Assembly (NCBI GenBank): GCA_021292105.1
Contig: CM037861.1
Span: 51,920,920 to 51,984,919 of the forward strand
Source: Anadara kagoshimensis
Taxonomy: Eukaryota; Mollusca; Bivalvia; Arcoida; Arcidae
Direction: 5' to 3'
DNA: 64,000 nt
This document shows positions 1 through 21,312 of this stretch, in pieces. The position numbers were made by a program, and so were the translations under genes. Within the stretch, counting starts at the first letter, position 1. Every line of letters starts with the position of its first letter. The notes under the pieces were generated by a model. That model ran no database searches. It saw only the letters and a program-made list of their open reading frames with translations, and was not told the DNA's origin.

Positions 1-98
1 GCCCGTTTTAGATTACAAATAATTTCATGAATTGCATTACCAGATTTGTTTATAAAAAATACATGAATGACCATATGCATACTTGCAAATCTTAAGTT

Positions 99-1891
99 TT
101 ACATACCTTTCTCTGGAACAAATTCAATTTCATCAAAATCTTTGCCTTTGTACTTTGCAATGGTGCCATTGTTAATGCTGTGCAAAATCTTTGTAACTTT
201 GGCTGCTTGTGATGCATTTTCAGGCAGGCGATAAAATTCTCTGTGAACCCTGATGTCGTGGCCTTGAAATGTAGCTAAAATATCTTGAGAATTTTCACTC
301 AAATTAAGAACCTGTGCTAATGTTGCCAACTGTTTCCTCAATTTTGTGGATGTTAATGATGAAGGATGTTCCACCCCTGCCTCCTTTGACAATTTCCTAA
401 GACAATCAGAACCTCTGTATGGTTTTGTGAATTCTCCTGGCCTTGCAAATAAGTATGGCTGTTTGACATTTGCTTTGTTCCTATTATCAATCAATACTTC
501 AATTTGTTGTCTCATCTTGTCAGTGAGAAGTACTGGGACCTTCCTGCCTCTTTTTCCTCTGATTTCAACTCTTGTATGCGATGTGCAGAGACGTTTTTCA
601 AATTCTGTCAGTGTACTCATCACTACAGGATCAGGTCTACCACTGCCATTTTTAATGGCATCATTAAATCCTTCAAGCAACATTCTTTCTGCTTCGCCAC
701 TTCTTCTCCTATTAAATAAAATGACTTGTGTCAGGAGAACTTGAGATAGTTTAGAGTATAAATCAGGGTTGTTTCCAATCTTCTTGCAAAGACTGTTCGC
801 GGTAGATTCCAAGTACTTGTTCAGCTTGACAACATCATCTGTCAATGGGAGCATTTGAGTTTTATTGTACTTCTGATTATCAAGCGAGTTTAAGGCTACA
901 GAAGAAACATCATCCTTCCAATCACTTGTATACAGGCACAGAAAATCTTCAGCTTCTTTCTGTTTACATTTGTTGTTTTCTTTTATTGCATCTGAACGTT
1001 TATATCGAGCACATTTTTCGAGGCTCTGTCCTATTTTTAGGGCTAGAGATGGAGTTTTAAACATCTGACTCTGTTCATCATACCCAGCTACAATTTTTAT
1101 ACATTTTATTAATACATCCCAGTTGCAGCTTTTAAGCACATCATCAACTGACTTTACATTAGATACGGATTTGCAGCAAACAACAAGTCGACCAAGTTCA
1201 CGTAGTTTCTGAGATATGTACTGTATCTTATGCTCTTGTGGGCCATGTTTCTTGAGTAATCTTTCTCCAAAGTTTATAATGCGTTTGTCTTGTTCAACAG
1301 TAAGTTTGACATCATCATTTTGCATTTTCAAAAAGACTTTGTCTGCTAGTATTTTACTACTGCTGTTACATGGAAGCAATGAACTACCATTTTTAATATG
1401 TTCTCTATCACTGTCTTTTGGATCTTTAGCAACACAGGAAGACTGGTGTTTCCACAAGTCACTTTTTTTGTACAATGCTTTGCAATGAAAACAAGGAACA
1501 AAATCTGTTACTTTCACACTATCATCATTTTGCCTGTATTTGGGAATGATCATTCCATGCCCCTTTTCTATTACAGCATAATTATGAGCAAAGTCTCCAC
1601 GGTTAACAAGTTCTTCCCAGCATTTTCTTCGGTTCATACTTCTCTTTGGCAGAGCAAGAATTTTAGCCACTTCAATTTCATTTTGGTGCTTTAATGATAA
1701 ATGTCTTGATATGTTTGGCAACACTATTCCACAAAAAACACATGCATGGCATTTATTGGAAAGATTTCCTTTAGAATTTTTATTGGCTGCCTGAATAACA
1801 ATTTTCTTCTCCTGACTGAGCACTGGAAAAATAGCACTTGTTTTATCTTCATTTTCACTATCCGATACATGTACATTTTTGTTGTGAATTG
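99..1891 (-). CDS. Terminal exon: zinc-finger-like clusters plus tyrosine recombinase-like domain
   Basis: This is a long intronless reading frame of about 596 residues. Acceptors at 1891/1892 and at 1824/1825 are in the same phase, so both give the same protein downstream. Residues below are numbered from the GTG codon at 1823. A C2H2-like cluster uses C28, C31, H41, H46; a C2HC-like cluster uses C111, C114, H126, C130. The C-terminal 210 residues match the layout of a tyrosine recombinase core: box I arginine in RRRSGE (R374), a basic beta-hairpin GKRGRKVPV (K424/K428), TKLRKQLATL in the place of HxLRHTxAT (R496, with the first histidine replaced by T493), GHDIRVHREFY with H522, and the putative nucleophile Y531. 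Family knowledge: this fold breaks and rejoins DNA in Cryptons, DIRS elements and integrases. Whether this copy is active is unknown; the first box II histidine is missing. Confidence 0.7.
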
Positions 1892-3639
1892 CTGGAATTC
1901 AAAATTAAACCATAATGTATATATAGAAAACACAAATGTATTGTTTAAATATAGTCAAAAAGTTGATATATAAATGGAATAACAATTTCAAAGGTAATAA
2001 TTTACTGTTCATGTCCCCAAAACATTACTCTTATACATACACATACGTGATATTTACTATATACAACATGTCTTATGTGAATCAATAAGTAACTCAGTGC
2101 TCGCTCTGTTATTGGAAGATCATGGGTTCAAAACCTGACTGAAGTCTGACCTAAGACTGGAAAGTGGGTAGTGACTGTTCTTTTGCCAAGCACTCAGCTT
2201 TACGAAAAGAAAGTCAGTTCTTTCGTATGGAAACTTACAAAAATGAGGTCCTGTGTCAGGGTAGATTTGGCATAAAAAGAACCCTGCTGTGTAATGTCAT
2301 CAGCGCAACAAACAGGCAAAATTTCTGCACCTTCGTCTATAACTGGTGATGTCTCAATATAAGTGAAATATTCTTGACTAGGATGTTAAACACCATTACT
2401 CCAGTCCACTCTTACATGAATCATGGCAATCATTACAACCCATGTTACTGTATGATGTCCAATGTCTGTATTTATAATGTTGTATGCAAGGTCTTCACAC
2501 ACAGTATGCGTGTGATATCTGAAATACTTCATATGCTTCATGTCAGCATACTATGTGTGTGTAATGTGAATCAAGGGCACTACACTTTCAGTCCACTACA
2601 TGTGTTTGGACTTTACAAACCATTAAATGTAGGCAATGTGGATCACAAAAATGCAGGATAATAGTATCAGTGTGAGTACATTTGTATTCATGTTACAAGT
2701 TCCAAGTTGTACAACATTTATAGCGGGAATTATTACTGGTACAGCAGAAAAGGTCACAGTAATAACCTATATGTACATTATATGCAAATTCTTGTATATC
2801 AACATTTTATATCAATATATAAAGTTAAATACTAATAAACATCACAAACGTCAATTGTTTTTAGAAAAGATGCAGGAAGTCAGTAGAATAAGAAAGCAGG
2901 TCACAGATCACTGCCCTATACATAGTTTGTAGTGCAATACATTTATATCAATCTAATGCAAAATGTTTCTAATGCAAGTCAAATATTTTTTTAAACTTTT
3001 AAGAAAAATCAACAAAACACGAAAAGAAGTCAATGTCTATGATCTAACTTTAAAGAAAACCGAGTTAATTTAATCTAAAACAATTATTATGATGATTGTC
3101 ACAATACTTTGATATAAGAACAGATTATGATAGTCTACAGAGGTTGCTCCAAATACATAATTATAATAGTTTCTGATAGTACCATATGAGAGGCATGTAC
3201 CTTTATATTAACACAAAACATAAAATGCTTTCTTAGCATAAAACTACATCAAATTTCCTTAACAGTAAAGGTAAAGGTGAAAAGACAAAGGTTTTAACTT
3301 ATGGTTAAAAATACACTGTAGTAGAAAATTTGCATCTGAAAAACGTGTACATGGCAGCATCAAATGTAACCAAGAATACAAAACACTGCAATACAATATT
3401 CAAAAACAAAGAAAATACAAACACATATAAGGACCAATGATTATATAAGCCCCGACTTTGAACAGCATAGTAGTAAATGTCCAGCAGTGTGGTATAGTAC
3501 TATTGGAGGCCTTAAGCCATCCTACTATTATAACAACCAGTGGTCCACAAATACACACATTTAAAATTAAAAATAAACCTTACCTTTTTCAAAAGAACAA
3601 CCGTTATTTGTTGATGACTGAGTTGGATAGTGTTTATTG

Positions 3640-3672
<33 letters not shown>

Positions 3673-5024
3673 CACATATCCTCTTTCTGAATGAGATCTG
3701 GAAGTAAAGTAGATACATATATTGAGTATTAAAATATGCAAATTTAAGTTTACAATTGACAATCAGCACTTAATTTCACAATATTGTATGATTTGACAAG
3801 TAGCTTATAGCAAGTAAGTCTCTGGTTCCTACATCTTTAAAAGTGGATGTTAATGTCAAGTTACAACAAGTGTATTATAAATTTAACCAAGTAAGGAAAT
3901 CTTCATACATACACATATATTTCAAAATCTTTCTAGATCTCTTACACTCTTACCTTTCTCAGAAGAACTATCATCATCCGTTGATGATTCAGTTGATAAT
4001 TCAGTTGGACAATATTCATCATCATCATCATCATCATCATCATAAAGTCCATCCTCTCTCTGAATAAGATCTGAAAGTAAAGCAGAAAAAATTCATAAAA
4101 ACTCTTAAACTAAATCACAATAACAGTTACAATTACAATGACAGTTACTTCTTTGCTTTATATTTGTAAGAATCTTTAGTGAGGTTTACTTCATTGTTAT
4201 TTGGAATTTGGAACAAAGAAACGTGAAAAACAAGAATACTATTTTTCTGCCTGTGATATACGTGTATGTACAAAAATCATGATAAATTGTCATTTGTGAT
4301 ATCACAATACATATTTGTCCACATCATCATCTCTAATGAATAATGCATCATAGCTATGTGTATTTACTTATGCACTGGGTTGCATGTGTGTCATAGAAAG
4401 TAGCGAGTTGCATGTGTGTGCATGCATTATGCATCATTGCTAGGTACTTATGTACTGGGTTGCATGTGTGTCATAGAAAGTAGTGAGTTGCATGTGTGTG
4501 CATGCATTATTGCTAGGTAATTATGTACTGGGTTGCATGCGTGTCATAGAAAGTAGCGAGTTGCATGTGTGTGCATGCATTATGCATCATTGCTAGGTAC
4601 TTATGTACTGGGTTGCATGTGTGTTCAAGAAAGTAGTTGAATTGAATGTGTGTGCATGAATTATTCATCATGGCTATGTGTACTTACTTCTGTGTCTCAC
4701 AGAAAGTAGTGAATTGCATGTGTGTGTATAGATAATGCCTCGTGACTATTTGTATTTACTTATGTACTGAGTTGCATATATGTGTGTGCATGGATTACAC
4801 ATTATGCTATGTGCATTTACTGATATACATTGGACACCATATCTAAATTTTTTTACACTCTTACCTTTCTCAAAGGAACTATCATCATCAGTTAATTTAG
4901 TTGATACTTTATTTGAACGATCATGAATATTGCCATCAGCATCATCATGCCCATCCTCTTTCTGAGTAAGAACTGGAAGTAAAGCAGAAAATTTGCATAA
5001 AAAATAGGAAATTAAATCACAATA

Positions 5025-5074
<50 letters not shown>

Positions 5075-8000
5075 GTTCAAATAATATGAATAAAGAACAA
5101 TTGGGAAACAACTCTACTGGCCTTTATAAGCAGGTGGCCCTTACATAGAAGTGGCCTTTAGGGCAGGTTGGACTGTATATATATATATATGATTTCTAAA
5201 ATGTAACCTAATGACACTTTTTTGATACTGTAATTTTAAACACCTATCTGTGACTTAACTGCTTAGGGCTAACTGAATTTGAACCTAAAATTCCGGACAT
5301 GATAGGAATCCATTATTAGTGATTACATTTCCCTAACAGCAAATGAAAATGAAAGCAAATAAGTTGCATCATTAGCATTTGGCATTTTGAATCTTATCAT
5401 TTTTATCTTACCCCCCTCCATTTCATCTTCGCTCTCTGATGATGAATCATCATATTCGCTGTCTGATGATGAATAACCACATTCGCTCTCTGATGATGAA
5501 TCATATTCGCTCTCTGATGATGAATCATATTCTCTCTTTGATGATGAAACATCACATTTATCATTGGATGAATTTGGATTACTTTTTGTAGCACTCACTG
5601 CTTTCTTTGGTTGATTTAGTTCAAATGGATCTGAATCTGCAAAAATATTCATAAAATACTAAATAACGAGGAATGACTAAAACCTTAATACCATAGCCAA
5701 TAAGATTTTTAGTACTATATTTCGTCACTTATAACCAACAGTTTTAGACCAAAAATAAAATTTTTAGGAGATACGTGTTGAAAGCGGTCTACAAGAAAAT
5801 TTATCTTGGCCATGTCTGTCATGTATACTGAACATAGGCCACAATCGTCATCAGAAATAATAGATCAGAGTGGTGGATATTTAATTTAATTGTGAAGATT
5901 AATTAGGGTACGGGTTTGCCCTAGGTTGTGTTATAACCAAAAAATATGGTATATGATTATTTAAATACTAGAAATCTTAGTAGCTACAATACAAAAGTTT
6001 TGTTATCTTTACTAAACAATCATCAAAATGAAAAAAAAAAAAAAAACAAAAAAAAAAAACAATATATATATATATATATATTTAACAATGTTTTGACAGG
6101 ACCACTAAAATTCATCTTACCAACTGAGAAAAGCCTGATGAATAAGTTGGCTGAATATTAAAATTGGTATAATTAAAGTTGTGTACATGTAGCTGAGCTA
6201 TATGTGGTTTGACAATGTCATTGACCATTCTAATTATATTCAGAGAGGCTAATAAAATACACGATATCTAGAGATAGACTGATGGCATTTCACACCAGAG
6301 TCAAGATTTTTACTGATGGTCAATTTTGGGATAGAGGAAGAAATGGGTGTACCCAGAGAAAACCACTGAACTTGATTGAGCAAGTTGACATATTTTTTCA
6401 CACTAGGATCTACACAAGGATTATTTGACATATTGTACAATCAGAAAGATTCCTGAAACCATGCTTGGTATGTTTGGAATAAATAGTGGACTAAATATAA
6501 AGCACTAGTATGAGACTGAAAAAAATTCTTAATTTTCAATTCACCAAGATACAAGTAAATGATACCCACATATTAATAAAGAATTGTTTAGTGACAATTA
6601 TCAATTAAGTATATAGTACATTTGGTCTGCTCCGCTAAATTAAGAAAATAACCTACGATCAATGAAAAACATAACATGAACTAAAACAGCATGCTTAAGA
6701 TAACTATCAACAAAATGAACATATGCAAGTCTCATCACCAAATTTGGCTCATGGGCAAACTTTAACAATTTTTTTTAAATAACAAAATAAACAGCAATAA
6801 ACAAATTCACCAACATAGAACAATGTAGAAGCTAGTTTTCACTCAATTAACTGATTTATTGTTCGCCAGCACTAAATATTACTTTACTCTATTCAATTCA
6901 ATTCAATAATAGATACAACTTTGACTATACATAATATGTATCTGTAATGTTTTGATTGGCTCTGATATGAATATGAACTAAAGAAACATCAAGCACTGCT
7001 TGCTAACGAAAAAGTCTAAAAAAAATAATAAGAATTCAAGTGAAAACTGTACATTTACATTGCTATTGACCAATAACAAAAACTGTTACCCGAATCAGAT
7101 TCCACTGGAATTTTATTGCAAGATTTGTTCTGCAAATGTGTAATTTTAAAATTTAAATTTATTGTTCAGACTTTTTATGAGAAATTGCTTGACAATGTTA
7201 TGTATAGATCCAAATTTAGCACATTCCTTGTTTTTTTTCATGTATATTTTCTTACCAATATTTTAAAAAGCAAAAGATGATGTTCAGGAAGCACTGCTTT
7301 GCCTAGTTACTCAGACAAAAGGTTACCAAGTAGTCTTATTCAAATTCCTAGAGCAATTGGTAAGATGTACACCTCCAATCTAAGCATTAATTCCTCATTT
7401 TATTTTCATATCATTCTAACATTAACTTCCCCCTCCCCCATATATTCTACTATCAATTTATAAAAAGTTTAGAGGACACTGATTTTTTTAGATGACCTGT
7501 GAAACACATAAACTTACCAGGTTCCTCCATTCTAAGTTTTTGTCAGCATCGCCATAATCATAACGTATTTCTTGACCTTTAGGAATAGTTTTGGTCGCAT
7601 ACAGACAGAGTCTTGGATAGTTGCTGTTAAAGACTTTAAGCTTCATTTTTGAGTTGCATTTTGCACTTTTAACTGCTGAATCATTCACATAGCGACACAA
7701 CCTGTTATTTGTGTCAGTGGCATCAATACTGACAAAAACAATAATAATAATAATATGTAATTATTATTATTTTTATAATAATAAAAAACATTACCATACA
7801 CAAAATTAAACATTCAATTCCAATTTTTTATATTTACTACATGTACATGTATATTGATAAAAAGATTGAAAACTGGTGCAAAAGAGAAAATGTGGAATAT
7901 TTTCTTGGACAATCTTCTAATGACCAGAGAAATGATAATGCCTTTCCTAGATGAATATAAATACATGTACAACGAGTGCTAGAAAGTACTGAAATCTGCA

Positions 8001-11000
8001 AAACTGAAATAAAACATATGTATGGAGCATCTGAACATGAATTTTGGTGTAAAGATCATTACTTCAATATTTTTTTAATTTGTTTTAAATCTGACAGAGA
8101 CCATAGCAATAGAAACAATTATCAGGAACTGCATGTAGTTCTGTGATTGTTCCTTGGTCATGACCTATCTAAAACAATACTTTTCTTAATTAAGGCCTTA
8201 ATTTTAGTGATTTCTTCAATCTATTAATATCTACATTTTTAAAAATAATTCAAATTTGCATAAACTTGATAAGAATTATATTGAAAATAAACTCCCAATT
8301 TCAGTGCTCCAAGCAGGTTTTGAAAACTGGTAGCCACATGGCTAATAATTCAAAAAATTCAGTAGCCATTTCAAAATTTTTGTCGCCAGGTAAAATTCTT
8401 GGTGGCCAAACCTTATATTATTATTAAATTCTTTCTATCACACCGCCCGTCGCTACTACCGATTGAATGGTTTAGCGAGATCCTCGGATTGGTCCCACCA
8501 TGGTAGGCAACTTTCAAGGCGGAGCGATGAGAAGACAATCAAACTTGATCATTTAGATGAAGTAAAAGTCGTAACAAAACCCAAATCAAAAAGTGATTTT
8601 TGCCGTTTGACTGTCATTAAGCAAAATTAGATCACGGTCAGTTATGCGCTTTAAACTATAAAGTTACCTGCTTTGATTCAAGCGCTTTTAAGATATTATT
8701 GATGGCGAGACTATTTGTCAGGTTGGGTGACGGGTCATGAACAAAATTTTCGGATTTCCCGATTTTTAGTGGCCAAACTCAAAAAAATTATTTGACATAA
8801 TGGCGATCGTCTGACAATTTGTAGTCGCAAAATCCGATTTTTGGTCGCAAATTTCGAGTATTTACTAGGCTACTTGGAGCACTGAATTTGCATCTGGATC
8901 TGCAAATTCATCAGTGTAACACACTTTTTCAATTATTATTATTCTTCACTTTTTATTTAAAATGTACATCTATTATATATACTTACCAACATGTCTTCTC
9001 TCTATATCTAAAATAATACATGTAACATCTGTTGTTTTTCCGTTTTTTCTCTCTCTCAACTGCTTCTTCCAAACTTATTCGTTCACCGACATATTCTAAC
9101 AGGAAATCACCCTTATAAAATGTCTTGGTAGCAAAAACCCCAAACCCTACCAAAATAAATCAAACAGTCTGAATATATTTGTGTGAAAAATGGTTCATAC
9201 AAGTTTTGGGTAAAAAAAATCAAGGAATTTAAAGTGGTTTTTCAGACTACTGTCTAATGTAAGGATTTTCAAGGTCTTTATAAAATAATAAACAGAAAAA
9301 CACTGTAATATCATTTACAATATACCTTTAATTTTTCAATTAATCCAGATAGTTAAGTTGCTGTTCAAGCCTTAAAAGATTTTGTTGAGAATTTAATGTA
9401 TCCAAGACAGGCAAGTCAGGTTCCATTTCTATACCGTATTTCAGGGCTCACACTGCAAATGGCACAAATTGTGACATTTTTTAAAAATAAATTATGACAA
9501 AAAATCGTCTTTAAATAATAAAATGCCCTAGAAGACTTAAAATTTCTACTTTTGTTTAATATTTGCAACTATTTTTTTTATGTCAGCGTGTACCCTGTAT
9601 TTAATCTATCTGGTTTTAAATAACAGATTTGGCATTTGTGTACACAAATAACTCCTAATTGTTTCAATATTAATCCATGAAATGATTGTTAGTAGTGCTC
9701 ATTTTTCAGACATTTCAAGTGAAACTTATCAGATTATTATCCCTTCCAATCATAATGTAACCATTAACATGTATCTTGACGTATGAAAACATGATGAGAA
9801 CTTTAGCAGTTTTAAAATTGGTACAAATGCGCAATTCAATTTGTTTCACTTCTCTTACCAATGTACTGATTGATAAACATTTTGCAGAAGCCATCCTGGT
9901 CCAACCCACTTTCACACCAATAATGGTCACTACTGAGACTATCAATTCTAGGCACCTACAATCATAAATGTCAATATCTAAAAATCGCTGTATTTCAAAT
10001 ATAAACTGGTCTATGTATACATTTTACAGCACTTGCATTCTATAAATTGTGAGACAATAGAATATTATGGTCAGATGATTAGAAACTCATGGACTACTGG
10101 AAAGTTTCAAATTTCCTGTCAGTATTTCCTGTAATTGTTCACACCATAGTAAAGTGAGTTTCTTTTGCAATAAAATAGCTGTGTCAATCTAGCATAAGTT
10201 TAAAACAATTGTGTTAAACTAGTTCAGTGTTGATGTAATTGATGATTGATTGATTAATTAATGGTGTTTAACGTCCCAGTCAAGAATATTTCACTTATAT
10301 CGAGAGGTTGCCAGCTATAGGCGAAGGTGCAGAAATTTTGCCTGTTCGTTGTGCTGATGGCATTATACAGCAGGGTTCTTTATCGTGCCGAGCCTACCAA
10401 GACATGGGACCTCATTTATTTTAAGTTCCCATCCGAAAGAACCGTGACTTTCATTTCGTATTGCTGAGTGCTTGGCGAAAGAACAGTCACTACCCACTTT
10501 TAAGTCTTGGATCAGACGTGGCCCGGGTTCAAACCCACGACCTTCCACATACGGAGCGAGCACTTTACCAACTTAGCTACCGCAGTGGTCTGTAGTTGAT
10601 GAGAATAGAACTGATACACTGAGAGGTTGCAACATCATATTTATAAAAGTAAATGACTTGAAAATTGGCTTTGTCATGACCTAAATGGAAATAAATTAAA
10701 AAAAAAAACCAATACACATATTTCACAATAAAAGAAAAAAGATATATTGTACATGTATGTTGTTTGCATTTGCCTACTTACTTTGGCTAATGTTTGACCT
10801 GATATGCTTGCTCTAAGCTGAAATGTAAATAAAAGAATATGTAAATTTTATTCATTTCAGATTGGTATATTGTATGTATCAAAAATACATGAAAATTCTT
10901 TAAGCTCTTGCATGCATGATTGTGGGATATATGTAAGGATTAAGCATCATCGCTATGTGTATTAACATGTACCTTGCATGCATTTCATAGAAAGTAGTGA

Positions 11001-12655
11001 GTTGCCTATGTTTCCATTCCTGGTAGCCAAAATTGCCATTGGCTACTAATTTCTGAGGAATTCTTTTAAAAAGTAACCTATTTTAGCAAATTTGTGGGGA
11101 AATACTTTAAAAAGGACTATATTTTCACAAATTTTGGAAATTTGGCTACTAATTATTTTAAATTTATCATTGTATTTCAAGGGGTAATGAAAGATAGTGT
11201 GGCGTGTGCCAAATTCGTTATTTTGAATTTGGCACGCACCACACTATTTTTCATTACCCCTTGAAATACCATGAGCAGAAATGTCATTTCTTATATTTAC
11301 AATTCTTTCTTTTCATAAATAAATTGTATCTTGGCGCTATTTTTTCCATATTTGCTCTTGCGATATAGGGTTTTTAGCCATGCGAGATCAGCGTGTCTCA
11401 CATGATCACGCGACCCCGTGTAGGACATGACATAATATTGTGGGAAAATTGATACACGTCAAGAGTCATGACCCCCATTGTCTTTCATTGGGAATTGAAA
11501 TACAATTGCTTCTGTATGTTTCATCGAAGACAGGTACAGTCATATTGTAAATATTGTTGATTGAAGTTGTTGCATTCCAAACATCAATCTAAACTTCCAT
11601 ACAATTATGTCAAAAAACTTTATTTGGTATGAGTTAATAATAAAAGTTTTATTGAATCATCATCATCATCATCATGGATGTCACTGAATGAATGGAGGTT
11701 TACTTTCATATTGATGAACCAAAGTAACTAAATGGGTTACTATAGTGATAATTTATGCAAACTCTTAATTAGGGACTTTCTAGGTCAGATGAGCCTCCAA
11801 ATATGACAAGAAATGAAAAAGGTGACTTTAAATCAGGATTTGAACCCCAGACATTCCCAATAATAGCAAGATGGTATACCAACTGAAACTATCGAACTAT
11901 GCACAGCACTGCCTTCCCCCGGCAATAGACCTAGCAGATATATTAGATGAATGATTAAACTTTTTCAAACATTAGAACTTTTCTGAATTCAAAATAAAAT
12001 AATTACCAATTATTTCTAGTTGCTGGTTCTTCTGTCTATAGAGGGTTGCTGTTTTTATTTGTTCCCAAAGTGACGGATGTGTACGTGTTATTCTAAAAAC
12101 TGAACAAGAACCGGATCTTGCTTAAAATTCCGGTGGATGTAACCTACGCCATGTGTATGGAAAATATTTCTATTAAATTTAATTCATAATATTACTCCAT
12201 GATTTTAAATGCTGGAATTTTAATTTTGACTGGCATTAAACTAAAATAAAATATTTGGTGCCATAATTAGACGCTATTCAATCTATAGTTTATAACAGCA
12301 ACAGTGGCTGGACTTTTGAGAATATTTCACATTAATCAAGATGTGAATGATAACCAACTGACAGTATCAAGTTGGTCATCAATATTATAACAAATTTTTT
12401 TCAACCCCTCCCCCTTCTATAGTTTATGAAAAATAATTTCAATCTATGATGCTTTAGGCTTTTTTTCACTAATGACATTTAATACAGTATTTACAAAAAA
12501 AAAAAAATAATAATAATAATCTAAAGTTCTATGACCTATGTTTGATGTCATTGATACATTAACAACTATCAAACATATTTGTCATTGTTGAACTTTGGGC
12601 TTGCCAGTGCATTACTTACCATCTTTTTTCCATAGCTTGATGTAAAGCTGGTCAT
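99..12655 (-). CDS. Predicted fusion gene: KMT5A-like SET domain, acidic linker, zinc fingers, tyrosine-recombinase-like core
   Basis: I assembled this model by reading the minus strand. Exons in order: 12655-12620 (coding part), 10817-10782, 9955-9859, 9146-8987, 7728-7518, 7129-7090, 5636-5412, 4972-4865, 4070-3954, 3697-3584, 1891-99. Every junction has GT/AG signals and compatible phase, and the sum is 2,937 nt with one terminal stop (978 residues). The N-terminal third is a SET lysine methyltransferase fold closest to KMT5A (H4K20 monomethyltransferase). The middle is Ser/Asp/Glu-rich, and the C-terminal 600 residues carry zinc-finger-like clusters and a tyrosine-recombinase-like core. 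A nuclear chromatin or DNA-binding role is inferred. It may be a host gene that absorbed a Crypton-type recombinase, or a member of a multicopy family. The last exon also ends at a good donor (AAAG|gtatgt, about 104), so the gene could continue past the left edge. No transcript evidence was available. Confidence 0.72.
1892..3583. other. Intron with a SINE fragment, otherwise nothing recognised
   Basis: This is the intron between the last acidic exon and the recombinase exon. Apart from a SINE copy at about 2090-2395 it is AT-rich sequence with short TATACA-type runs. No exon with both splice signals and suitable phase was seen. Confidence 0.5.
2090..2395 (+). repeat. tRNA-derived SINE (family 1), diverged copy
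   Basis: The tRNA-like head is degraded (gctcgctctgttattggaag, then gttcaaaacctgactg). The body is recognisable: gggtagtgactgttcttttgccaagcactcag, and an ending gaaatattcttgactaggatgttaaacaccattact. It is the same family as the intact copy at 30503. Confidence 0.7.
3584..3697 (-). CDS. Asp-rich tandem exon C (third copy)
   Basis: This 114 nt exon is phase 1 at both ends. It encodes a D-L-I-Q-K-E-D opening, a run of ten Asp from a GAT microsatellite, and an F-E-K-G ending before the donor gtaagg. It is homologous to the exons at 3954-4070 and 4865-4972. The symmetric phase means copies can be gained, lost or skipped without shifting the frame. It lies directly before the recombinase exon. The His-repeat frame on the plus strand is its antisense shadow. 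Confidence 0.65.
3954..4070 (-). CDS. Asp-rich tandem exon B (second copy)
   Basis: This 117 nt exon is phase 1 in and phase 1 out. It opens D-L-I-Q-R-E-D, contains eight consecutive Asp codons, then a Ser/Thr/Glu stretch ending S-S-S-E-K-G at donor gtaaga. It closely matches its neighbour at 3584-3697, including about 15 bp of intron beside each donor and acceptor, so the duplication included flanking intron. Confidence 0.65.
4340..4830. repeat. Tandem array, about six units of 72-81 bp
   Basis: Repeated units share tactgggttgcatgtgtg and catagaaagtag, spaced about 80, 72 and 80 bp, with decayed units on the right. The array lies between acidic exons B and A. A stray related unit is at about 10895-11010. 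Confidence 0.85.
4865..4972 (-). CDS. Acidic tandem exon A (first copy)
   Basis: This 108 nt exon is phase 1 to phase 1. It opens V-L-T-Q-K-E-D and ends D-D-D-S-S-F-E-K-G at donor gtaaga. It is the same unit as the two exons downstream, but the Asp run is broken by His, Ala, Gly and Asn. The opening P-V-L-T-Q-K resembles the P-V-L-S-Q-E start of the recombinase exon, so the last exon may begin with a fused copy of the same unit. Confidence 0.62.
5027..5071. repeat. (AT)n microsatellite
   Basis: About 22 AT dinucleotides lie directly beside a truncated Tc1-type MITE (5071-5175). A second, shorter AT run follows it at about 5176-5190. Confidence 0.95.
5071..5175. mobile_element. Tc1/mariner-type MITE fragment
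   Basis: This is the 3' half of the family described at 17230. It ends ggcaggttggactg followed by TA. Its 5' half is replaced by an AT microsatellite. Confidence 0.7.
5412..5636 (-). CDS. Ser/Glu-repeat linker exon
   Basis: This 225 nt exon has acceptor tttgcag and donor GGGGG|gtaaga. It completes an Asp codon from the previous 40 nt exon. After D-P-F-E-L-N-Q it has four or five imperfect copies of an S-S-S-E-S-E-Y-D unit, then an acidic E-D-E-M-E-G end. The Ser residues sit next to Glu/Asp, as in casein kinase 2 substrates, so phosphorylation is plausible. It is predicted to be disordered and joins the SET domain to the acidic exons. Confidence 0.68.
5653..7089. other. Intron with a diverged SINE; otherwise nothing recognised
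   Basis: It contains an A-rich run at about 6028-6060, an (AT)n at about 6062-6080 and a decayed SINE of family 2 at about 6275-6425 (gatggtcaattttgggatag, cacactaggatct). No gene is seen. Confidence 0.5.
7090..7129 (-). CDS. 40-nt linker microexon
   Basis: Acceptor atttgcag and donor CGG|gtaaca bound 13 codons plus one base: N-K-S-C-N-K-I-P-V-E-S-D-S. It starts in phase 0 and ends in phase 1. That is exactly what is needed to connect the SET exon (phase 0 end) to the Ser/Glu exon (phase 1 start), which otherwise hits a stop within seven codons. Confidence 0.6.
7518..7728 (-). CDS. SET domain, C-terminal half
   Basis: This 211 nt exon encodes the cofactor and catalytic half of the SET domain. 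It starts I-D-A-T-D-T-N-N-R-L, matching VDAT.ETNRLGRL of KMT5A, followed by R-Y-V-N-D-S at the place of the R-L-I-N-H-S motif. It then has Y-A-T-K-T-I-P-K-G-Q-E-I-R-Y-D-Y-G-D, with the catalytic-type Tyr in Y-D-Y-G-D intact. The histidine of the N-H-S motif is Asp here; in KMT5A that pair contacts S-adenosylmethionine. The donor is CTG|gtaagt. Confidence 0.82.
8302..8884. mobile_element. hAT-like non-autonomous transposon carrying an 18S rRNA fragment
   Basis: Termini are CAGTGCTCCAAG at 8302 and its exact inverse CTTGGAGCACTG ending at 8884, flanked on both sides by AATTT, a likely target duplication or part of one. Subterminal sequences (gtggccaaac, gtcgca, ggtagcc) recur in both halves. 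The body holds part of the 18S rRNA gene. CAGTG-type ends suggest the hAT superfamily, but the duplication seen is 5 bp rather than 8, so the class is uncertain. It sits in the intron between the two SET exons. Confidence 0.75.
8439..8577 (+). pseudogene. 18S rRNA 3'-end fragment (captured)
   Basis: The sequence begins CACACCGCCCGTCGCTACTA and runs through GATTGAATGGTTTAGCGAG and CCTCGGATTGGTCCC to AGTAAAAGTCGTAACAA. These are the universally conserved last bases of eukaryotic 18S rRNA. It stops exactly before the normal GGTTTCC end. Several compensation-free differences from consensus, such as TTTAGATGAAG, show that it is not a working rRNA gene. Confidence 0.92.
8987..9146 (-). CDS. SET domain, N-terminal half
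   Basis: This 160 nt exon has acceptor ttttggtag and donor TTG|gtaagt. It encodes G-F-G-V-F-A-T-K-T-F-Y-K-G-D-F-L-L-E-Y-V-G-E, the GxG cofactor loop and first beta strands of a SET domain. A basic helix follows with E-E-A-V-E-R-E-K, then Y-M-Y-Y-F-R-Y. Its last two bases complete a Cys codon with the first base of the exon at 7728. Confidence 0.82.
9859..9955 (-). CDS. Exon preceding the SET core
   Basis: This 97 nt exon begins in phase 0 and ends in phase 1 (donor ATTG|gtaaga). It encodes V-P-R-I-D-S-L then W-C-E-S-G-L-D-Q-D-G-F-C-K-M-F-I-N-Q-Y-I-G. The end aligns with the short strand that leads into the K-G-R-G-V-F motif of KMT5A-type SET domains. The two Cys could be structural; no zinc site can be assigned. 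Confidence 0.62.
10245..10592 (-). repeat. tRNA-derived SINE (family 1), full length
   Basis: On the minus strand it has an A box (TAGCTAAGTTGGTAAAGTG) and a B box (GGGTTTGAACC). The conserved body (GGGTAGTGACTGTTCTTTCG) follows, then the 3' end TATTCTTGACTGGGACGTTA. It is the same family as 30503-30845. Confidence 0.85.
10782..10817 (-). CDS. 36-nt microexon near the N-terminus
   Basis: Acceptor tacatttcag and donor AAA|gtaagt enclose 12 codons (L-R-A-S-I-S-G-Q-T-L-A-K), phase 0 at both ends. It can be included or skipped without frame change. It is supported only by splice signals and phase. Confidence 0.45.
11172..11269. repeat. Near-perfect 45-bp inverted repeat (hairpin)
   Basis: The left arm runs tatttcaaggggtaatgaaa to gtgtgccaaattc and the right arm is its inverse, separated by about 8 bp. 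It is probably a small foldback MITE inside the intron. Confidence 0.9.
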
Positions 12656-12692
12656 TTTTCAGTTTTTAAAACTGAAACATCTGCAATGGGAT
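12620..12692 (-). CDS. Candidate first coding exon
   Basis: This exon has acceptor tttttccag and donor ATG|gtaagt. All three frames are stopped in its 5' half, so that part is untranslated. An ATG at 12655 with A at -3 then reads M-T-S-F-T-S-S-Y-G-K-K-M in phase 0 into the next exon. An alternative is splicing from the upstream exon at about 16690, whose own ATG frame also ends in phase 0. Confidence 0.45.
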
Positions 12693-12739
12693 CTGGAAAA
12701 ATAAGTAAATTTGGACGTTTGAAAAAAACTGATGACAGG

Positions 12740-13080
12740 CAAACTAATGTAACAGGAAAGAGAAAAATGTTGGGTTGGATCATGGATCAAACCCGGGACA
12801 TCCTGCACTATAGACGAGTGCTCTACCACTGAGCTACCCAGACGGCTACATTCCTCACTTCATTATGTTATTCAATTCCTTGAAGTTGAATGGAAATCAC
12901 CAGGTTCCCACCTGCTGGTCGGCCAATTCCCAGGATAGGAAAAGTCCCAAAATATAATGTTCAGGAAAGAGAAAATATGCAGTGCCGGAATGGGGATTGA
13001 AGTCGGGACCTTCCTGCACTATAGGCGATTGCTTCACCACTATTGGCACTAAGCTACGCAGATCGCTACACTAATAACAT
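12740..13080 (-). repeat. Two adjacent tRNA-derived repeats
   Basis: Read on the minus strand, 12850-12765 has GGTAGCTCAGTGGTAGAGCA and GGGTTTGATCC, the A and B boxes of a tRNA. A second diverged copy lies at 13075-12970. Both contain ctatagtgcaggatgtccc-type anticodon-arm sequence. Loss of base pairing argues for SINE heads rather than working tRNAs. Confidence 0.6.
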
Positions 13081-14680
13081 CAGTGCTGATAGACCATGCA
13101 AATTTTTCGTGAGCTTCCTTCAGGGGCGTACGTTTGTACGCAAAAACGTCCACATCCTTTTTGCAAAAAAAAAAACAAAAAAAAACGAGAGAGTGAGAGA
13201 GAGAGAATATAATATATTTCTTATACCAAACCGTTGGTCTTCACCGGAAATGTTATATACGAATTTGGTTTATACCGGACTTGATAGCCTCTGAGGTGCG
13301 GTTCCAGTGTTGTCTTGACTTTGCCGGTGATCTTTTCGCTTTGAATGATGATGAGTTAAGGTTTAAGAATGAACCAGTCCTCAAAAGAACGACAAAAACT
13401 ACCACAGCATAGCATAAAATTATAAGAAAAATTCTGATAAATAGCGCCCTGGAGGGCCAAAAATTCGCATCAGGGCGGCCCCCAAACCCCCTGCCCTCTT
13501 TAGGCGTCCACATCATAAACACCCCGGTACCCCGAAATACCGGATCGGCCCTAATTTACCGGATCGACCATACAATTTACCGGATCGGCGCCGGATCGAC
13601 CCTTATATTGTCACATGGAGTTAAAATGATGGCACCATTAGATTTATATGATATCAATGATGAAAAATATATATTATTTTTAATTGTTTTGATCATGGGT
13701 AATAGAAAATATCATTATTATTTTCAGTACAGGTTCACAGCTGTACAAATCGCCATGTTGAATCATGTCAAACGGCATGTCAAAGCGAAAGGACAGCCTC
13801 CTTAACACTTTAGACCAATCAAATTGAGTTACATAATTGACCACAGCACTCATCACAGGGCTTCGCTATTCGTGTATTGGTGGTAATTAGTGACTTTAAT
13901 TAAAGTATTTACGGCACGCGGCGGCTTATTGTCATTATTATATTTATTTAGTATATTAAAATATTCATTAGATATTAAATAAAGGAAAATCTTAACTATA
14001 AAAATATTTGTTTTAAAGTAAGTTTTAAATTTCATTATTTAAAATTATTATAAAATTTATTCATGAAAGCGATGTTATTTTATATTTTATTTATCCAGCC
14101 CCGATAATGTAAAGATATTAATTCTTAATGACAATCCATCCTTAGCTAATTAGATAATTAATGACCCGTCGTCAAAAAGATCCGTATAGTTAATTATATA
14201 ACCCATGTTATTAATGGCCCGTGATCTTAAAAATTCTTCTCTTTAAATTTTATGTTAAATAAGAGTGTAATTTAGTATTAATAATATTTCTCGGATGTCA
14301 AAAATATTTAAGACAAAATGTATATTAAATAAAAAATATTTAAGACCCAAAGAGTAACTTATTATTAGTTTAATAATACAGTTTTAAGTAATTTAGTTTT
14401 TAATAATTTAAATTTAGCTGAAAGCAATAGTATTTCATAATTTAATTATAATAATTTTAAAGTAAAGTAGTTTTTAATAATATTTCTCAGATAATTGTTA
14501 TAAAATTATATATTTTAATTTTTAATTATATAATTTTTATATTAAATTAAAATATTTAAGACAAAAAATAATTTATTACAAGTTTGGTTGTTTAAAATTC
14601 GTTATTAATTTAGATTAAAAATTTAGGAAAGTTGTAGGTAGAGGTGTTAATAAATCAGCACCACCAATTGCCACAGTTAT

Positions 14681-15202
14681 GTGGACACAATGACATTAAG
14701 ATCTAGTGATCAGTTCGTACCCAATCACTTTGTTCCCCTAATGAAACTTGGTTCTGAGACCACACCGACTGAAACTATCGTTATCAATGATAGCAACGTC
14801 GACTCAAATTGTGACGTAAATACGTCCGGTATCATGCACGTTGACGAAATTTTGGATGACGACAAACAAATTGACGTTGCGCATGATGTAACTCTGGACG
14901 ACGACAAACAAATTGACGTTGTTCCCCTTTACTCTTTTTTATATACTTATGGGTATTTTTAAATTTTATTATGAAACTGGCCCCTGTGGGATGACCGCAC
15001 TGATTCGATGACTGAAGAATTTAATACCGAATACAGTGGGAAACTGACAAACTCTTTTTTAGACACTGACACCTTAGTAACGTTACTGAAATCAGCAAAT
15101 ATAGAATCTGTTTTAGACGACATACCAAACGGTAAAAAAGACAACATATATTTTCTCTATTTTGTATATATATATATGTCACTTGTATTGTCATTTATCT
15201 AA
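14681..15202 (+). CDS. Small unrecognised reading frames inside the 2.8-kb element
   Basis: A 93-residue frame (14681-14962) contains a duplicated acidic unit, L-D-D-D-K-Q-I-D-V, repeated at a 14-residue spacing. A second frame (15008-15202, 64 residues) opens M-T-E-E-F-N-T-E-Y-S. Sequence here is less AT-rich than its surroundings and could be exons of a decayed element protein. No function can be assigned. Confidence 0.25.
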
Positions 15203-15359
15203 AGGTCATAACGGTGCCTTTTCTTGTATTTCTAAAATCAATTCACGAAGTATTTTTACGCAGTTAAAGACGCGCATATAAACCCCGCCAAAATACTAAA
15301 TACGACCTTGATATTGTTTTACGTTATTTTGTATATATTCACTGATTTCTTACATGTAG

Positions 15360-15780
15360 ATATACATGTCCCAGTCAAGGATTCTTTACACTTACATAAA
15401 AATATTGTGTGCTGTTAATGATATTTTGTCTGCCGTGATTATCTTTTGTCTCTGGCCCCGGTTTCTGAGGCCTAGTCTGGTAATATTTTATCTTTATTTT
15501 ATTTGTTCCCTATGTATATATTGTGTGTTTTGTATGTATTTTTATTTGGGTATGGTGATTTTATTTTGTTTTACTTTATTTTGTATATTTTTACTACACA
15601 TGTCCCAGTCAAGGTTTCCTTACACTTTTATCAAAAAGTTGTGTCATGTTAATTAGTTTGATTATCTTTTGTGTAATTCCGATGTATATATTCATCAATT
15701 TATTACATGGAGATATATAAAACCCAGTCAAGATTTCCTTACACTTATATCAAAACGTCGTGTTAATTATATTTTGTCTG
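15360..15780. repeat. Three diverged copies of a cccagtcaagg motif block
   Basis: Blocks at about 15367, 15600 and 15720 share cccagtcaagg or cccagtcaaga, ttcctttacactt-type sequence and a following ttgtgt/ttaat stretch. They lie inside the 2.8-kb element. The motif resembles the tail of SINE family 2. Confidence 0.45.
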
Positions 15781-16689
15781 ATTATAACTTATCTTTCATT
15801 CATGTATTTTATTTGTATTTACTTGTATATATTATTGTGTTTGATTACAGCATTTTGTGTATGATATTAACAGAACACTTAATAATTATTATTAAAAGTG
15901 ACACATTGATTATAATTTATCAATATATAATATAAATCAAAATAGTATAATATTATATACTATTTTAGGTTATTTTATTTATTGATACACACTTCAAACT
16001 GTGTCAATCAATTAATAATAATAATAATAATAATAATAATCTTTATTGGTATCTTGGATTACAGTGTTCACCATACATATAATAAACATATAATATTATG
16101 AATTAGATTTATCTCCCCTTGACTATAATAAGATTTCTTTGATGATTGTGTGTCAATACATCAAAAATAAAATTAAAATAAGATTGATTACACCTTTTAT
16201 TAACGATATCAACATTATAATTATCCAATATTAGCCGTATAACCACATATAAGGGTCGATCCGGCGCCGATCCGGTAAATCGTATGGTCGATCCGGTAAA
16301 TTGGGGCCGATCCGGTATTTCGGGTTACCCTAAACACCCCAGCTACGCCCCTGGCCTTGACCGGGTCATGCTGATATGAACGTATGGCCGGTGGCCTCCT
16401 TCCGTTAATCGATCCAATATATCCAAGTATTTATAAAATATAGTGGACCAGGTATTAATCAACAAAACGTCACAATCGGTAAATTGTTAAGTGGCTGGCT
16501 TAACTATGATCTAACATGTCGACCCGGCGACCAAATTATAAGCAGTGCTTATTTTCAAATAATATTACAAGTTTCTGTGCTGAAAAAACGTCAATACCAA
16601 AATATAGTAATTCTTTGTTATTCAATAAAACACTTATAACAGCATTTTAAAAAAATCAAAATAAATAATGTTAAAATACCGTTGCTTAC

Positions 16690-16771
16690 AGCATTCCTTT
16701 TTCTATCACATGTTGTTGACATTGACGCTCCTGGGAACATGGCCGAATTTTACATGCCCTGCGCATGCGCG
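16690..16771 (-). promoter_or_regulatory. Possible promoter and 5' exon with an NRF1-type palindrome
   Basis: TGCGCATGCGCG at 16760-16771 is the consensus binding palindrome of NRF1, a factor typical of TATA-less promoters. On the minus strand it is followed after about 70 bp by a splice donor (ATGCT|gtaagc at 16690). A short frame in between (M-F-P-G-A-S-M-S) ends in phase 0 and would also fit the exon at 10817. The plus strand also has an ATG here (16740) within about 20 bp of the palindrome, so the direction is not proven. Confidence 0.35.
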
Positions 16772-17012
16772 AGTCCTTGCCGAGTAAAGTGTGTAACTGT
16801 ACAGATCACTGTGGGGATTGCGTGTGAAATTCTACGGGGTTACACCGGAAACCCAAACATGTAAAAATTTTGTATTGTCTGAATAGGATACGGTCTAAAT
16901 AGCATTTTCAGACGAATTTTCAACCCAACACGCGGGTGTATGCACTGGGTTGAAAATATGAAGTCACTTGCACGTGTGTATTCATTTGAGTGTAGTGGGA
17001 AGAAGGCATATA

Positions 17013-17015
<3 letters not shown>

Positions 17016-17048
<33 letters not shown>
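17016..17048. repeat. (CA)n microsatellite
   Basis: About 16 CA dinucleotides, just downstream of the candidate promoter region. Confidence 0.95.
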
Positions 17049-17051
<3 letters not shown>

Positions 17052-17229
17052 TGGTAATGGACTTTTGGTTTCATTTAAATACCAGTGAAAATCGATATGA
17101 TTAACTTATTAAAACTTAAAGATAATTTCTGTATGATGATTATTATTATTATTGGTAATCAATAGCACCATTAGGCTTTTATCTGCGACTCGTATACATC
17201 ACGGTCATGTATACCACTTTTTGAATGTA

Positions 17230-17408
17230 CAGTCAAACCTGTCTATTAAGGTCACCCAAGGGTACCAGTAAAAGTGGCCTTTATGGGCAGGTGACCCTTA
17301 TATACAGGTTTTAATAATATAAATAACAAACAATTGGAAAACAATTCTACTGGCCTTTATAAGCAGGTGGTCCTTATATAAAGGTGGCCTTTATGGCAGA
17401 TTGGACTG
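17230..17408. mobile_element. Tc1/mariner-type MITE, complete (179 bp)
   Basis: It starts CAGTCAAACCTGTCTATTAA and ends with the inverse, GGCAGATTGGACTG, flanked by TA on both sides. Internally it has repeated aggtg(a/g)cc..tttata blocks in both orientations. TA duplication with CAGT ends fits the Tc1/mariner superfamily. Other copies in the window are at about 25378-25559, 30268-30357, 36047-36208, 36355-36514, 52907-53083 and 58517-58605. Confidence 0.85.
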
Positions 17409-17439
17409 TATTTATGATTAAATTCAAAGTGGTATCTGA

Positions 17440-18700
17440 CATGTGTATTAAGTATCAATGTTATATTAATGTGTACCTTCTGTACCACCTCCAGCACATT
17501 GAATTGGGGTTTAAAAATGTTGACTCAACAATGTGAAAAATTGTTGGGGGAAGGGGTTAAACAAAAGTTGAAATCAGGAAAAAATAAATATTTTTAAACC
17601 AGAATTTAATTTCGGGGAGTTACTTCATGTACATCCGTGTAAGTGGACACAATGTATGTCACATATTATTATGAACCAATGCATTGATACAGCAACCGAG
17701 TTACCCGACTGGTATCCATGTTTTTTTCAAACTAAGTGATGGATCTGAGAATACTACCATGTTGAAAATAACAATAAGGAAAAACAAAGGCCGAGAAAAA
17801 ACAGATTAGTTTAACATGTGCTAAAAGCGGAAAAAAGGCCAGCCAAAATATCTTCACAAATGCCAGTGAAAATAAATGTTAATTAAAAATGTTTATAATT
17901 CAATAGTATTTATAATCAGTGGCATCGTTGTTTGTGTTTATCATCGTCTTATGTGCATTAAGTACCAATTATATAATTATTTGTACCTCCGATAATTAAA
18001 TCGAGGTTATCTTAACTGTGATGGCGTGTCAATGTGTAAAAATCAAGGAAGGGATTTAACAAAAAATAAAGTGACTAGCAAAATAATTTATACATTAAAA
18101 CCAGAATTTAAATTATGGGGAGTTGTTTCATGCACATCTGTACAAATGGTATATATTGTATGTCTCACTTCACAGTGATTAAAAATTTTATGAACCAATA
18201 CATTTATATTGAGCAACCAACTGTAGGCGACTCATGTTCATGTTTTAAATATCAAACAAACTGATGGATCCACAGGTATTTTAGTTCAGGTATGATAATT
18301 ATCATATCTTTATTTTATTATTTCATTTTATCCAACATCACTATGAAGTAAACGCATCCAAAATAAATCGATTTAATTGCATTTTAAATATTTCTAGCTT
18401 ATTTAATATATTGATTTAATATTTTTACTGTATAATAATTTATTATACCTGATCAAAGTGCCTGTGGACTTAAAGAAATTAGTTTAAATCTTACCTGAAG
18501 ACATGCTCGCGGACTATACAAGCGGAGATCGATTGCATCAATCTAATAATAGATTCCAGGAGTGCCTTCCCATGTCAAAAATAACAATCGGGAAACCGAT
18601 AGGCCGAGACAAAAATAGATTAGTTTAACGTGTGCCTAATGTTGGAGAAAGGTCAACCAAAAGATCTTAATATTTATTCAATGCGAGTGAAAATCAAGTA
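17440..18700. repeat. Diverged tandem segmental duplication
   Basis: 17440-17880 and 17945-18700 align in order. Shared blocks are a gcattaagtacca start, ccagaattta.. ..gggagtt, tgaaccaat, aaaataacaat..ggaaa and ccgagacaaaaatagattag. The second copy has an extra AT-rich insert at about 18290-18480. No coding potential is seen. Confidence 0.65.
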
Positions 18701-19009
18701 TAATTTCATGAACACATGACGTGTGTAGCTAGCTAAGACCCTAAGTGATTACCCGGTCTCAATTTATTGATTGTAATTGCACATGTTTAGCTAAAGGCAT
18801 TAATAAATTTATTATGAGGCCCTTGGCTTAATATCTTTCCTTTTTAACCCCTATAGGACACATGCTGTCAGTGGCAAGCCACCAATGGATCCAAACTTTG
18901 TGTCGGTACAGCCACCGTAACCAAGAGTTTGGGTTGAGCTTCAATCCTAGGAATTGGATGTATATGTTAGTCTATGAAGAAAACATACTAATCCATGTCA
19001 GAAGTTAAG

Positions 19010-19960
19010 CCGGGTTGTCCAGAAGGAAGGGTAAGCGCCTGCCGTTTAGCTATCCGTACCCGTCTCGTTGAGTAAAAAGAACATGGAACAATGGGACGTC
19101 TGATATATCTAGTGCAATCCTGAACACAGAGACATCAAACTTATCAACAATACTGTGGTGACGGCAATAAAACTTTAAACTTTTTGAGGGCCCGGATAAG
19201 CCTAGGTTTGCAATATTCCTGAGTCAACAATTTATTTGGAAGCAGCTTGTCGTAGTGGGAACAAGCTCTACCATAGCCTTGGTGGCCCCAGTTTCAGTAT
19301 CAATTCTTAACTAAGACTACCCTTAACTTAAATCCGGTATCTAAAAAAATTGAAACTAGTTTTCCTGAAGGTATTCATGGGTTTTATGTGTCATTTTGAA
19401 GATCAACCAAAGCTAATTATATCTACTCTTTAATTTTGTAGCAGTATTTAATTTGTAGTACCATAAATATTGCCAAAATATACCAGATTTAAGTTTGTAG
19501 GGAAAACCTTAGGTAAGAAATGATTGACAATTTTTGGAACTGGAACCTGGATTTAGTTTATACGGAGGCTTGAAATAAGAAACCAAAGTTGTTAACAATC
19601 CTACATAAATTGAAAACAAACAAACTGGTTCATGTCCAAATCATAAAAGCAAAGAATGAATTGTGAAAGCTGAAATTAGTTAAATACATGAATTTTCACC
19701 AAGTGTTCGGGAGAAGGGATGGCTAGCGCCTCCTGCCTAGCTAAGTACACCACAGTCTGTGGAATCAAAAGTACATGTACATGGAACTATGGGACATTCA
19801 CAATATATCCAAGATAATATTTGATATATTGGCATCATACTTGTCAATAATGATTGTGATGACGGCCATACAACTTTTAAAAGGTCTTTAAAATCCTAGG
19901 GTTGCAATATCCCCGAGTAAACAATTTATTTGTATATCTTAGTCAAGTTGTCATTCATTA
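19010..19960. repeat. Second diverged duplication, interrupted by a MITE
   Basis: 19010-19240 and 19700-19960 share aagcgcctgccgtttagcta-like, atggaacaatgggac, tgtgatgacggc and gcaatatccccgagt-like blocks in the same order. The inverted-repeat MITE at 19280-19575 lies between them. No gene is seen. Confidence 0.55.
19280..19575. mobile_element. Inverted-repeat MITE (ccttaacttaaat family), diverged copy
   Basis: Ends ggccccagtttcag and ccttaacttaaat reappear inverted at aaaaccttaggtaagaaatg and ggaactgg. It is the same family as 20416-20682. Confidence 0.6.
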
Positions 19961-20415
19961 TAATCTAGATAGAAGTAAACAAAATATTATGTAATTTCAC
20001 ATTCTAATTTTAATTTTCTTATAAGTAAAATAAAAATTTATATAATAAACATTTGCATCATTAACGGTTCATACATCTATGCATACATACAACATTCATC
20101 TATCATACAGACCATGCAAACTTTGTATGAAAATAAAAAACATGCCAAGTGCATCATACTTGCACATTTTAATCACCATATTAATTTAGTTTGCAGATAT
20201 GTACACACGATTCACAATTTAAGTACACACATTCCCAATTTTAGAATTCTTCTCCACAATGAAAACATTTAACCATGCAAAAACAATATACATGTATATA
20301 TCATTTTCTTGTTTATATGTGATATTTATTCCATAAACTGACAAGGTATCTGTACATCTTGTGCAGTGAAATGGATTAGTGTTCCAAAATAATGGTGATT
20401 AAAACAAAGTACATC

Positions 20416-20682
20416 AGGCCCTGGCCCCAGTTTCACAATCATTCCTTAGCTATGATTTTCCTTAACTTAAATCTCGCAAAAATTCAAATCTTCATAATTT
20501 TGTTAATTTTCAAGATTTTCAGGAATTTAAGGAGTATTTTTAAGATCATCTCAAGCTTAAAACATTTGAATTTAGTTTTGACAAAAATATTCATCAATAT
20601 TTCCAAAAAGAGAATACCAAAATTTGCTAAATTTAAGTTAAGGAAAATCTTAGCTAAGGAATGATTGTGAAACCAGGGCCTG
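20416..20682. mobile_element. Inverted-repeat MITE, best copy
   Basis: The left arm aggccctggccccagtttca through tttccttaacttaaat is matched by its inverse at the right end (atttaagttaaggaaaatc to gaaaccagggcct), about 57 bp per arm. Relatives lie at 19280-19575, 20683-21312 and 59790-60017. Confidence 0.85.
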
Positions 20683-21312
20683 GTTTAATAATAGTTTCTT
20701 AACCACAATTTTTCTTAACCTAAATGTAGCAAATTTAGGCAAATTTTCTCTGGAACCTAGAATAAACATTATTGACAAAACTAAATACAAATGTAAAAAG
20801 CTTGAAGTGATCTTCAAAATGACTCCTTAAATTCCAGACTATCTTATTATTTAACTAAATTTTTACTGTATCAAATTTGCCATATTTATGTTAAAGAAAA
20901 TCTCAGATAATTACATATTATACTTGTGTTAATTTTAAAAGCACTAGACGGCCATTTTGGAATACAATTCCTCGTCATGTTAATTTAAAAGCACTAGACG
21001 GTCATTTCGGAATACAATTCCTGGTCATGTTAATTTAAAAGCACTAGACGGTCATTTCAGAATACTATTCCTCGTCATGTTAATTCAAAAGCACTAGACG
21101 GTCATTTTGGAATACAATTCTTTCTTGTCTTAATTTTCCAACACTATAAAGCCCTTTCAGAATACTGTCCTCATCATATTAATTTTACAACACTAGGTGG
21201 CTGTTTCGGAATACAATTCCTCATCAGTAGTGCTTGCACCAAAAATTTTCAAGGAGTTGAAAAACAATATCTAAAAAATTTTTTAGGAATGATTATGAAA
21301 CTGGGCCTGATG
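20683..21312. mobile_element. Third MITE copy, split by a 50-bp satellite
   Basis: The left part (gggcctggtttaataatag, cttaacctaaat) and right part (aggaatgattatgaaactgg, gcctgatg) are the two ends of the family. The satellite at 20928-21230 separates them. Confidence 0.65.
20928..21230. repeat. 50-bp tandem satellite, about six units
   Basis: gcactagacgg recurs at exact 50 bp steps (20941, 20991, 21041, 21091), each with gaatacaattcct. Two more diverged units follow. Confidence 0.9.

Follow-up and report, generated by a model that had tools for sequence, protein, structure and literature searches.

A multi-copy DNA element of Anadara kagoshimensis with GT-tract ends and a predicted gene joining SET and tyrosine recombinase-like domains

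SETMAR is a host gene in which a SET domain is fused to a mariner transposase. The locus of the bivalve Anadara kagoshimensis that we describe here likewise appears to fuse a SET domain to an enzyme of transposition, but it is itself mobile and would use a tyrosine recombinase (YR)-like domain. No SET-YR element was found in the literature searched in full text; the sections of PMC5753468 and PMC12477816 that were available contained nothing on such elements either.

Several described systems share some of these features. Cryptons are YR DNA transposons for which a circular intermediate has been proposed and non-autonomous derivatives are described (Kojima and Jurka, 2011; PMC3212892). In the sections of that work used here, the animal Cryptons (CryptonA) have neither a domain after the YR nor terminal repeats, and their YRs are DUF3504-like. 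Like Cryptons, the present element has non-autonomous derivatives, and a YR-like domain is the only recombinase recognised in it. Unlike CryptonA as portrayed there, it is ~25 kb long with GT-tract ends, contains introns and a SET domain, is predicted to continue for three exons (12-14) after the YR, and gives no DUF3504 hit: the Pfam matches listed up to E<=10, with HMMER filters on, do not include it, whereas PMC3212892 applied this criterion by PSI-BLAST. HarbingerS and MuDR transposons of Phytophthora are, in the parts of PMC12730594 consulted, transposon lineages that also carry genes for SET methyltransferases, but their hosts are oomycetes and their transposases belong to other families, while here the host is an animal, the recombinase a YR, and the SET domain apparently lies in the same protein. 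Finally, YRs of endogenous nimaviruses have a C2H2 zinc-binding domain and are linked to insertion in telomere repeats, according to the portions of PMC10871703 available. The element shares with them the combination of a YR with a C2H2 zinc-binding domain and insertion in a short tandem repeat; nimaviruses have large viral genomes, however, and here Pfam searches with the predicted gene and four further reading frames recognised no viral gene.

A predicted fourteen-exon gene

The window is a stretch of 64,000 nucleotides (assembly GCA_021292105.1, contig CM037861.1, positions 51,920,920 to 51,984,919); negative coordinates refer to the genome adjoining it on the left (L009). An earlier note on this DNA had joined eleven minus-strand exons into one frame, and this model was reproduced exactly, with ten GT/AG junctions, matched phases and a length of 2,937 nt that is free of internal stops. 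The end that it gave to the gene, position 99, had to be abandoned: it very probably lies in an intron, exon 11 ending at 107 in a splice donor (GAAAG/GTATGT). Three more in-phase exons lie to the left of the window, followed by a stop at window coordinate -2711. The full gene model is thus predicted to have 14 exons, 3,315 nt and 1104 aa (Table 1), and its predicted product consists, in order, of a SET domain, an acidic linker, two zinc fingers, a YR-like domain and a conserved C-terminus. The exon set is more than a product of chance, because the SET match extends across exons 3-5 (Pfam, 3.8e-18) and the stop-free frame of exon 11 (599 aa) far exceeds the longest one (176 aa) found among 30 random 64-kb sequences generated by an order-1 Markov model. 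Exons 8, 9 and 10 are diverged duplicates of one another. A SINE-like repeat with relatives elsewhere in the window occurs inside introns at 10259-10570 and 2096-2401, in opposite orientations.

Table 1. Features of the element and its predicted gene, in window coordinates
Feature	Position	Strand	Basis or remark
(GT)n tract at element 5' end	17016..17050	-	Element proper starts TTTGTATATGCC at ~17016
Mobile element, part within the window	1..17016	-	Continues leftward to about -10894
Sub-terminal inverted repeat near 5' end	16917..16956	-	TTTTCAACCC .. GGGTTGAAAA
2.8 kb insert, foreign to the element	13526..16329		83-nt terminal inverted repeats (96% complementary)
Exon 1 (ATG)	12620..12655	-	Splice model; start codon predicted only
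Exon 2	10782..10817	-	Splice model
Exon 3, pre-SET part	9859..9955	-	Splice model
Exon 4, SET domain N-half	8987..9146	-	PDB and Pfam matches
Exon 5, SET domain C-half	7518..7728	-	PDB and Pfam matches; YVNDS versus KMT5A INHS; YDYGD retained
Exon 6	7090..7129	-	Splice model
Exon 7, Ser/Glu-rich	5412..5636	-	Splice model
Exon 8, acidic	4865..4972	-	Splice model
Exon 9, acidic, diverged duplicate of exons 8 and 10	3954..4070	-	Splice model
Exon 10, acidic	3584..3697	-	Splice model
Exon 11, two zinc-finger motifs, helical region, YR-like domain	107..1891	-	GTATGT donor adjoins
Putative YR active site	231..704	-	R 702-704, K 552-554, T for H 345-347, R 336-338, H 258-260, Y 231-233
Exons 12-14, outside the window	-785..-895, -1976..-2035, -2497..-2711		In phase with exon 11

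A fold search had been proposed for both domains, and only the SET domain matched a structure of the expected kind, that of KMT5A; no YR structure was matched. By structure and profile searches alike, KMT5A (SET8, PR-Set7) is the closest SET type, and it provides the nearest solved structures (PDB, 1.2e-24; next other chain, 1.5e-13). Unlike KMT5A, the predicted protein has Asp in place of H299, joins its SET domain to other domains and is encoded in many copies. In numbering derived from alignment to the KMT5A structure, the NHS motif (N298-H299-S300) is absent from all members compared, which read NDS, NDA, NDE or NDD, and the H299 position is Asp in the window, in 5/5 other subfamilies aligned and in the L022/L023 type. 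YDYGD is retained in all five SET subfamilies aligned, and L022/L023 read YNYGS. The literature searched on SET8 expansion and on H299A offered nothing helpful.

Exon 11 carries a C2H2 and a C2HC zinc finger whose ligands are invariant in 9/9 members. The Pfam profile Phage_integrase matches its residues 436-523 (5.7e-6, 26.7 bits, just below the cut-off of 27.1) and is found at E<=0.01 in five of nine family members, with no match in the other four. All eight full-length members share R396, K446, R518, H544 and Y553 of exon 11 (positions 778, 828, 900, 926 and 935 in the complete protein), and in all eight Thr (Thr515 of exon 11) replaces the histidine of the HxxR motif. With hhalign, the LR and GH motifs were paired with those of XerD, XerC and lambda Int, but weakly (E 0.09, probability 0.6%). 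Solved-structure searches with exon 11 and with the family profile found no YR structure, and a single-sequence structure model of the YR was useless for the fold (pLDDT 36). We therefore base the YR assignment, weak in absolute score, on the Pfam match, the order of the residues and the behaviour of the element rather than on a fold. Scans of IMG/VR and GTDB with the YR, part of which used one short pattern, found no relative, nor did the phage records examined, and the matches in PHROGs look like chance. The C-terminus encoded after the YR by exons 12-14 is conserved in L022/L023 and has no credible Pfam match. Similar C-termini presumably occur in fish proteins, and we take it that unannotated fish proteins of the SET-YR kind exist as well; the family is thus probably wider than this genome.

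Discrete copies between GT tracts

Searches of the host genome, which has 1.115 Gb in 36 contigs, gave at least 78 matches to the YR exon (73 of 332 candidates scored) and, for the SET profile (PF00856), at least 150 scored among 350 candidates, many of them in equal-score sets. The YR proteins are 100% identical over 596 aa at four loci (C1, C15, C17 and the window locus on C5), and in several other copies of the window type the YR frame is broken or incomplete. A copy on C3 is co-linear with window 1196-12000 in four blocks of 96-99% identity and lacks window 8302-8884, and the copies L016 and L017 are 99.2% alike over 9.9 kb, introns included. The retention of introns argues against an RNA intermediate of the DIRS or Ngaro kind.

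The copies also have common ends. From a query of window 12001-32000, eight other copies match as far as window 17041-17051 and no further, and all 11 of the 5' ends that were read (these eight plus C2, C7 and that of the window) show, in this order, unrelated flanking sequence, (GT)n and TTTGTAT. At the 3' end, a query of L010:8000-10000 found at least 38 other places that stop within 12 bp of each other (L010 9081-9092; 40 of 4173 candidates scored in all), seven of them at 100% (rounded) over ~915 bp and 31 at 96-99% over ~547 bp. Where these stop, the window copy reads ..GCGTA(TG)9, and among the five 3' ends read directly, those of C2, C7 and L022/L023 end in the same way. At the 5' end the motif CCCACTACAC is ~18 bp away, and at the 3' end GTGTAGTGGG is at a distance of ~28 bp; the score of an end-to-end alignment of the element ends was reached by 3/1000 shuffles. 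On its 5' side, the C10 copy adjoins the 3' end of an L022-type element. The earlier note had called for a count of copies with flanking repeats, and the copies whose 5' ends were read do have GT tracts there and unrelated sequence beyond them. The breaks seen in types L011, L014 and L018 are without a GT tract, so that GT targeting is documented for the window and L022 types only.

An empty site completes this picture. L046 (C5:51501900-51504900) is a paralogue of the window flanks, ~420 kb away and without the element; its sequence as far as base 1060 matches the 5' flank (95.7%) and from base 1061 onward the 3' flank (96.0%), with only a GT tract at the join. Used as a query, the 3' flank matches this place plus short pieces beside it. 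The element thus has precise ends, prefers GT tracts as its sites in these two types, and has spread as a discrete, multi-copy, intron-containing unit of DNA.

Between its two GT tracts, the window copy measures 27,910 bp including the 2.8 kb insert, which is missing from the eight other copies aligned there and is a separate DNA element inserted into this copy. End coordinates give lengths of 25.3-25.5 kb for the copies on C1, C15, C17, C12 and at C3:61.5 Mb, and of ~29 kb for those on C8 and C10. A second form, read in the C2 copy (17,171 bp), lacks everything from window 1765 in exon 11 to L009 ~7499 in exon 14, and with it the YR. The two blocks at its 3' side adjoin at 26 places, and the breakpoint at 1765 is common to 9/9 copies matched, the junction itself being read in C2. 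The C2 copy has stops in exons 1 and 3, the latter also present in C7, and exon 6 was not located in it. This form has spread although it lacks a YR of its own and although the SET gene is broken in those copies that were read; movement in trans would be the simplest explanation. The C2 copy also lacks ~5.9 kb that the window copy has at L009 ~1067-6938 (window -8933 to -3062). This stretch may be native to the long form, as L009 1-4418 is 94% like two adjoining stretches of C12 near 14.2 Mb that share the element's 3' end.

Merging the YR matches gave 63 loci, of which 36 have a SET domain upstream on the same strand within ~32 kb among the SET matches listed (~0.13 expected by chance); one has it downstream, none on the opposite strand, and 26 have none among those matches. 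Of the 36, one (C10:35925137) is paired with the SET of a neighbouring element and another has its SET 31.5 kb off. The SET matches listed do miss true pairs, since the 26 include the YR of the window itself. Eleven (L011-L021) of the fourteen SET regions examined hold intron-split relatives of exons 4 and 5. A YR-like fragment in L018/L019 lies on the strand opposite to their SET and was set aside as debris of another element. A satellite-like array with ~30-bp spacing was also seen near another SET gene of the family (L020 ~6583-8802, L021 ~7148-8885).

Constraint, mechanism and alternative readings

Between subfamilies, SET domains differ by pS 0.69-0.88 and pN 0.16-0.40 (106-117 codons) and YRs differ from that of the window by pS 0.75-0.80 and pN 0.23-0.44 (550-560 codons); many dS values are saturated at this distance, and ratios are therefore not given. 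The SET domains of the window and the deletion form have a dN/dS of 0.23 (122 codons). These codon comparisons show clear constraint on SET, roughly equal to that on the YR. The L022/L023 SET is only 28% like that of the window, whereas YRs near SETs of the same type, assigned at these three loci by score and frame length only (C3:29080392, C19:15714494 and C19:48481775), are 40-75% like the window's in pieces. Such a diverged SET beside less diverged YRs suggests that SET modules were exchanged or that this SET evolves fast. In bootstrap draws, the SET of subfamily E was nearer to that of D than to the window's in 94%, and its YR nearer to the window's in 100%.

We consider it probable that the locus is a recently active DNA transposon of ~25 kb (28 kb here with its insert) with one predicted 14-exon SET-YR gene; it has the discrete ends, many sites and empty site of such elements. 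The earlier note had left open whether this was a mobile element carrying a chromatin writer or an unusual domesticated gene, and copy number, shared ends, unrelated flanks, the empty site and the deletion derivative support the former. A KMT5A-like host gene that captured a YR and now serves its host would account for a predicted frame that is open over 14 exons and for constraint on both domains, but the dispersed near-identical copies and the evidence just listed contradict it at the window locus unless the copies are artefacts, and we rejected it as very improbable. That segmental duplication or faulty assembly spread an ordinary gene is harder still to believe and was likewise rejected: the flanking region does have a paralogue ~420 kb away, but that paralogue is without the element, the flanks read differ, and matches end at nearly one base, in eight other places on the 5' side and at least 38 on the 3' side.

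Within a transposon, SET and YR might still belong to two neighbouring genes, the former ending in the acidic exons and the latter starting between 3584 and 1891. The 1.7 kb intron before exon 11 and the 26 of 63 YR loci without a SET among the matches listed would suit this arrangement, which we nevertheless regard as unlikely. The first Met of exon 11 comes no earlier than residue 85, beyond the first zinc finger, and an in-frame stop lies directly upstream of the exon, so that a separate YR gene would need its own first exon, and none was found; moreover, exons 8-11 all begin in phase 1 and have lengths that are multiples of 3. Order and strand are kept at 36/37 paired loci, although this is compatible with both models. 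We thus favour the single SET-YR protein of the earlier note on its splice sites and co-linearity, with the YR half of that proposal resting on a sequence-based assignment of weak score. As to what its SET domain does, constraint leads us to judge an action on, or binding to, the chromatin of the element or its target the most likely role, at somewhat better than even chances. A SET without enzymatic role, weakened by H299D and kept as a nucleosome- or DNA-binding fold, is rather doubtful: Asp at H299 in every subfamily compared would fit it, but strong constraint on SET and the YDYGD kept in five aligned subfamilies, though YNYGS in L022/L023, speak against it.

For the transposon with a single SET-YR gene, we propose that the YR would excise the element, probably as a circle, and insert it by recombining its GT-tract joint with genomic (GT)n. 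The zinc fingers and the C-terminus would bind the GTGTAGTGGG sites near the element ends, SET would modify or bind chromatin at donor or target copies and so aid expression or insertion, and copies that lost the YR would have moved in trans. More speculatively, and at somewhat less than even chances, the element could be the founding member of a distinct superfamily of YR transposons in animals, one with a fused lysine methyltransferase whose methyl mark takes part in the transposition cycle and with SET modules exchanged among lineages; the mark might then serve licensing, replication timing or keeping copies expressible. Whether a transposon may write chromatin marks with the very protein that moves it could be tested on this element. 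It also points to an animal YR with specificity for (GT)n, and a single genome contains its full-length copies and defective derivatives together with an empty site. The element bears on how mobile elements escape silencing and on the origin of transposase-chromatin fusions.

Elsewhere in the window, 43724-44982 on the plus strand holds exons of a POT-family (PTR2) transporter, with 43724-44011 above the Pfam cut-off and 44635-44982 below it. A repeat at 27780-29667 contains a tandem array of a 145-bp unit (28014-29254) and has ~90% identical relatives at many places.
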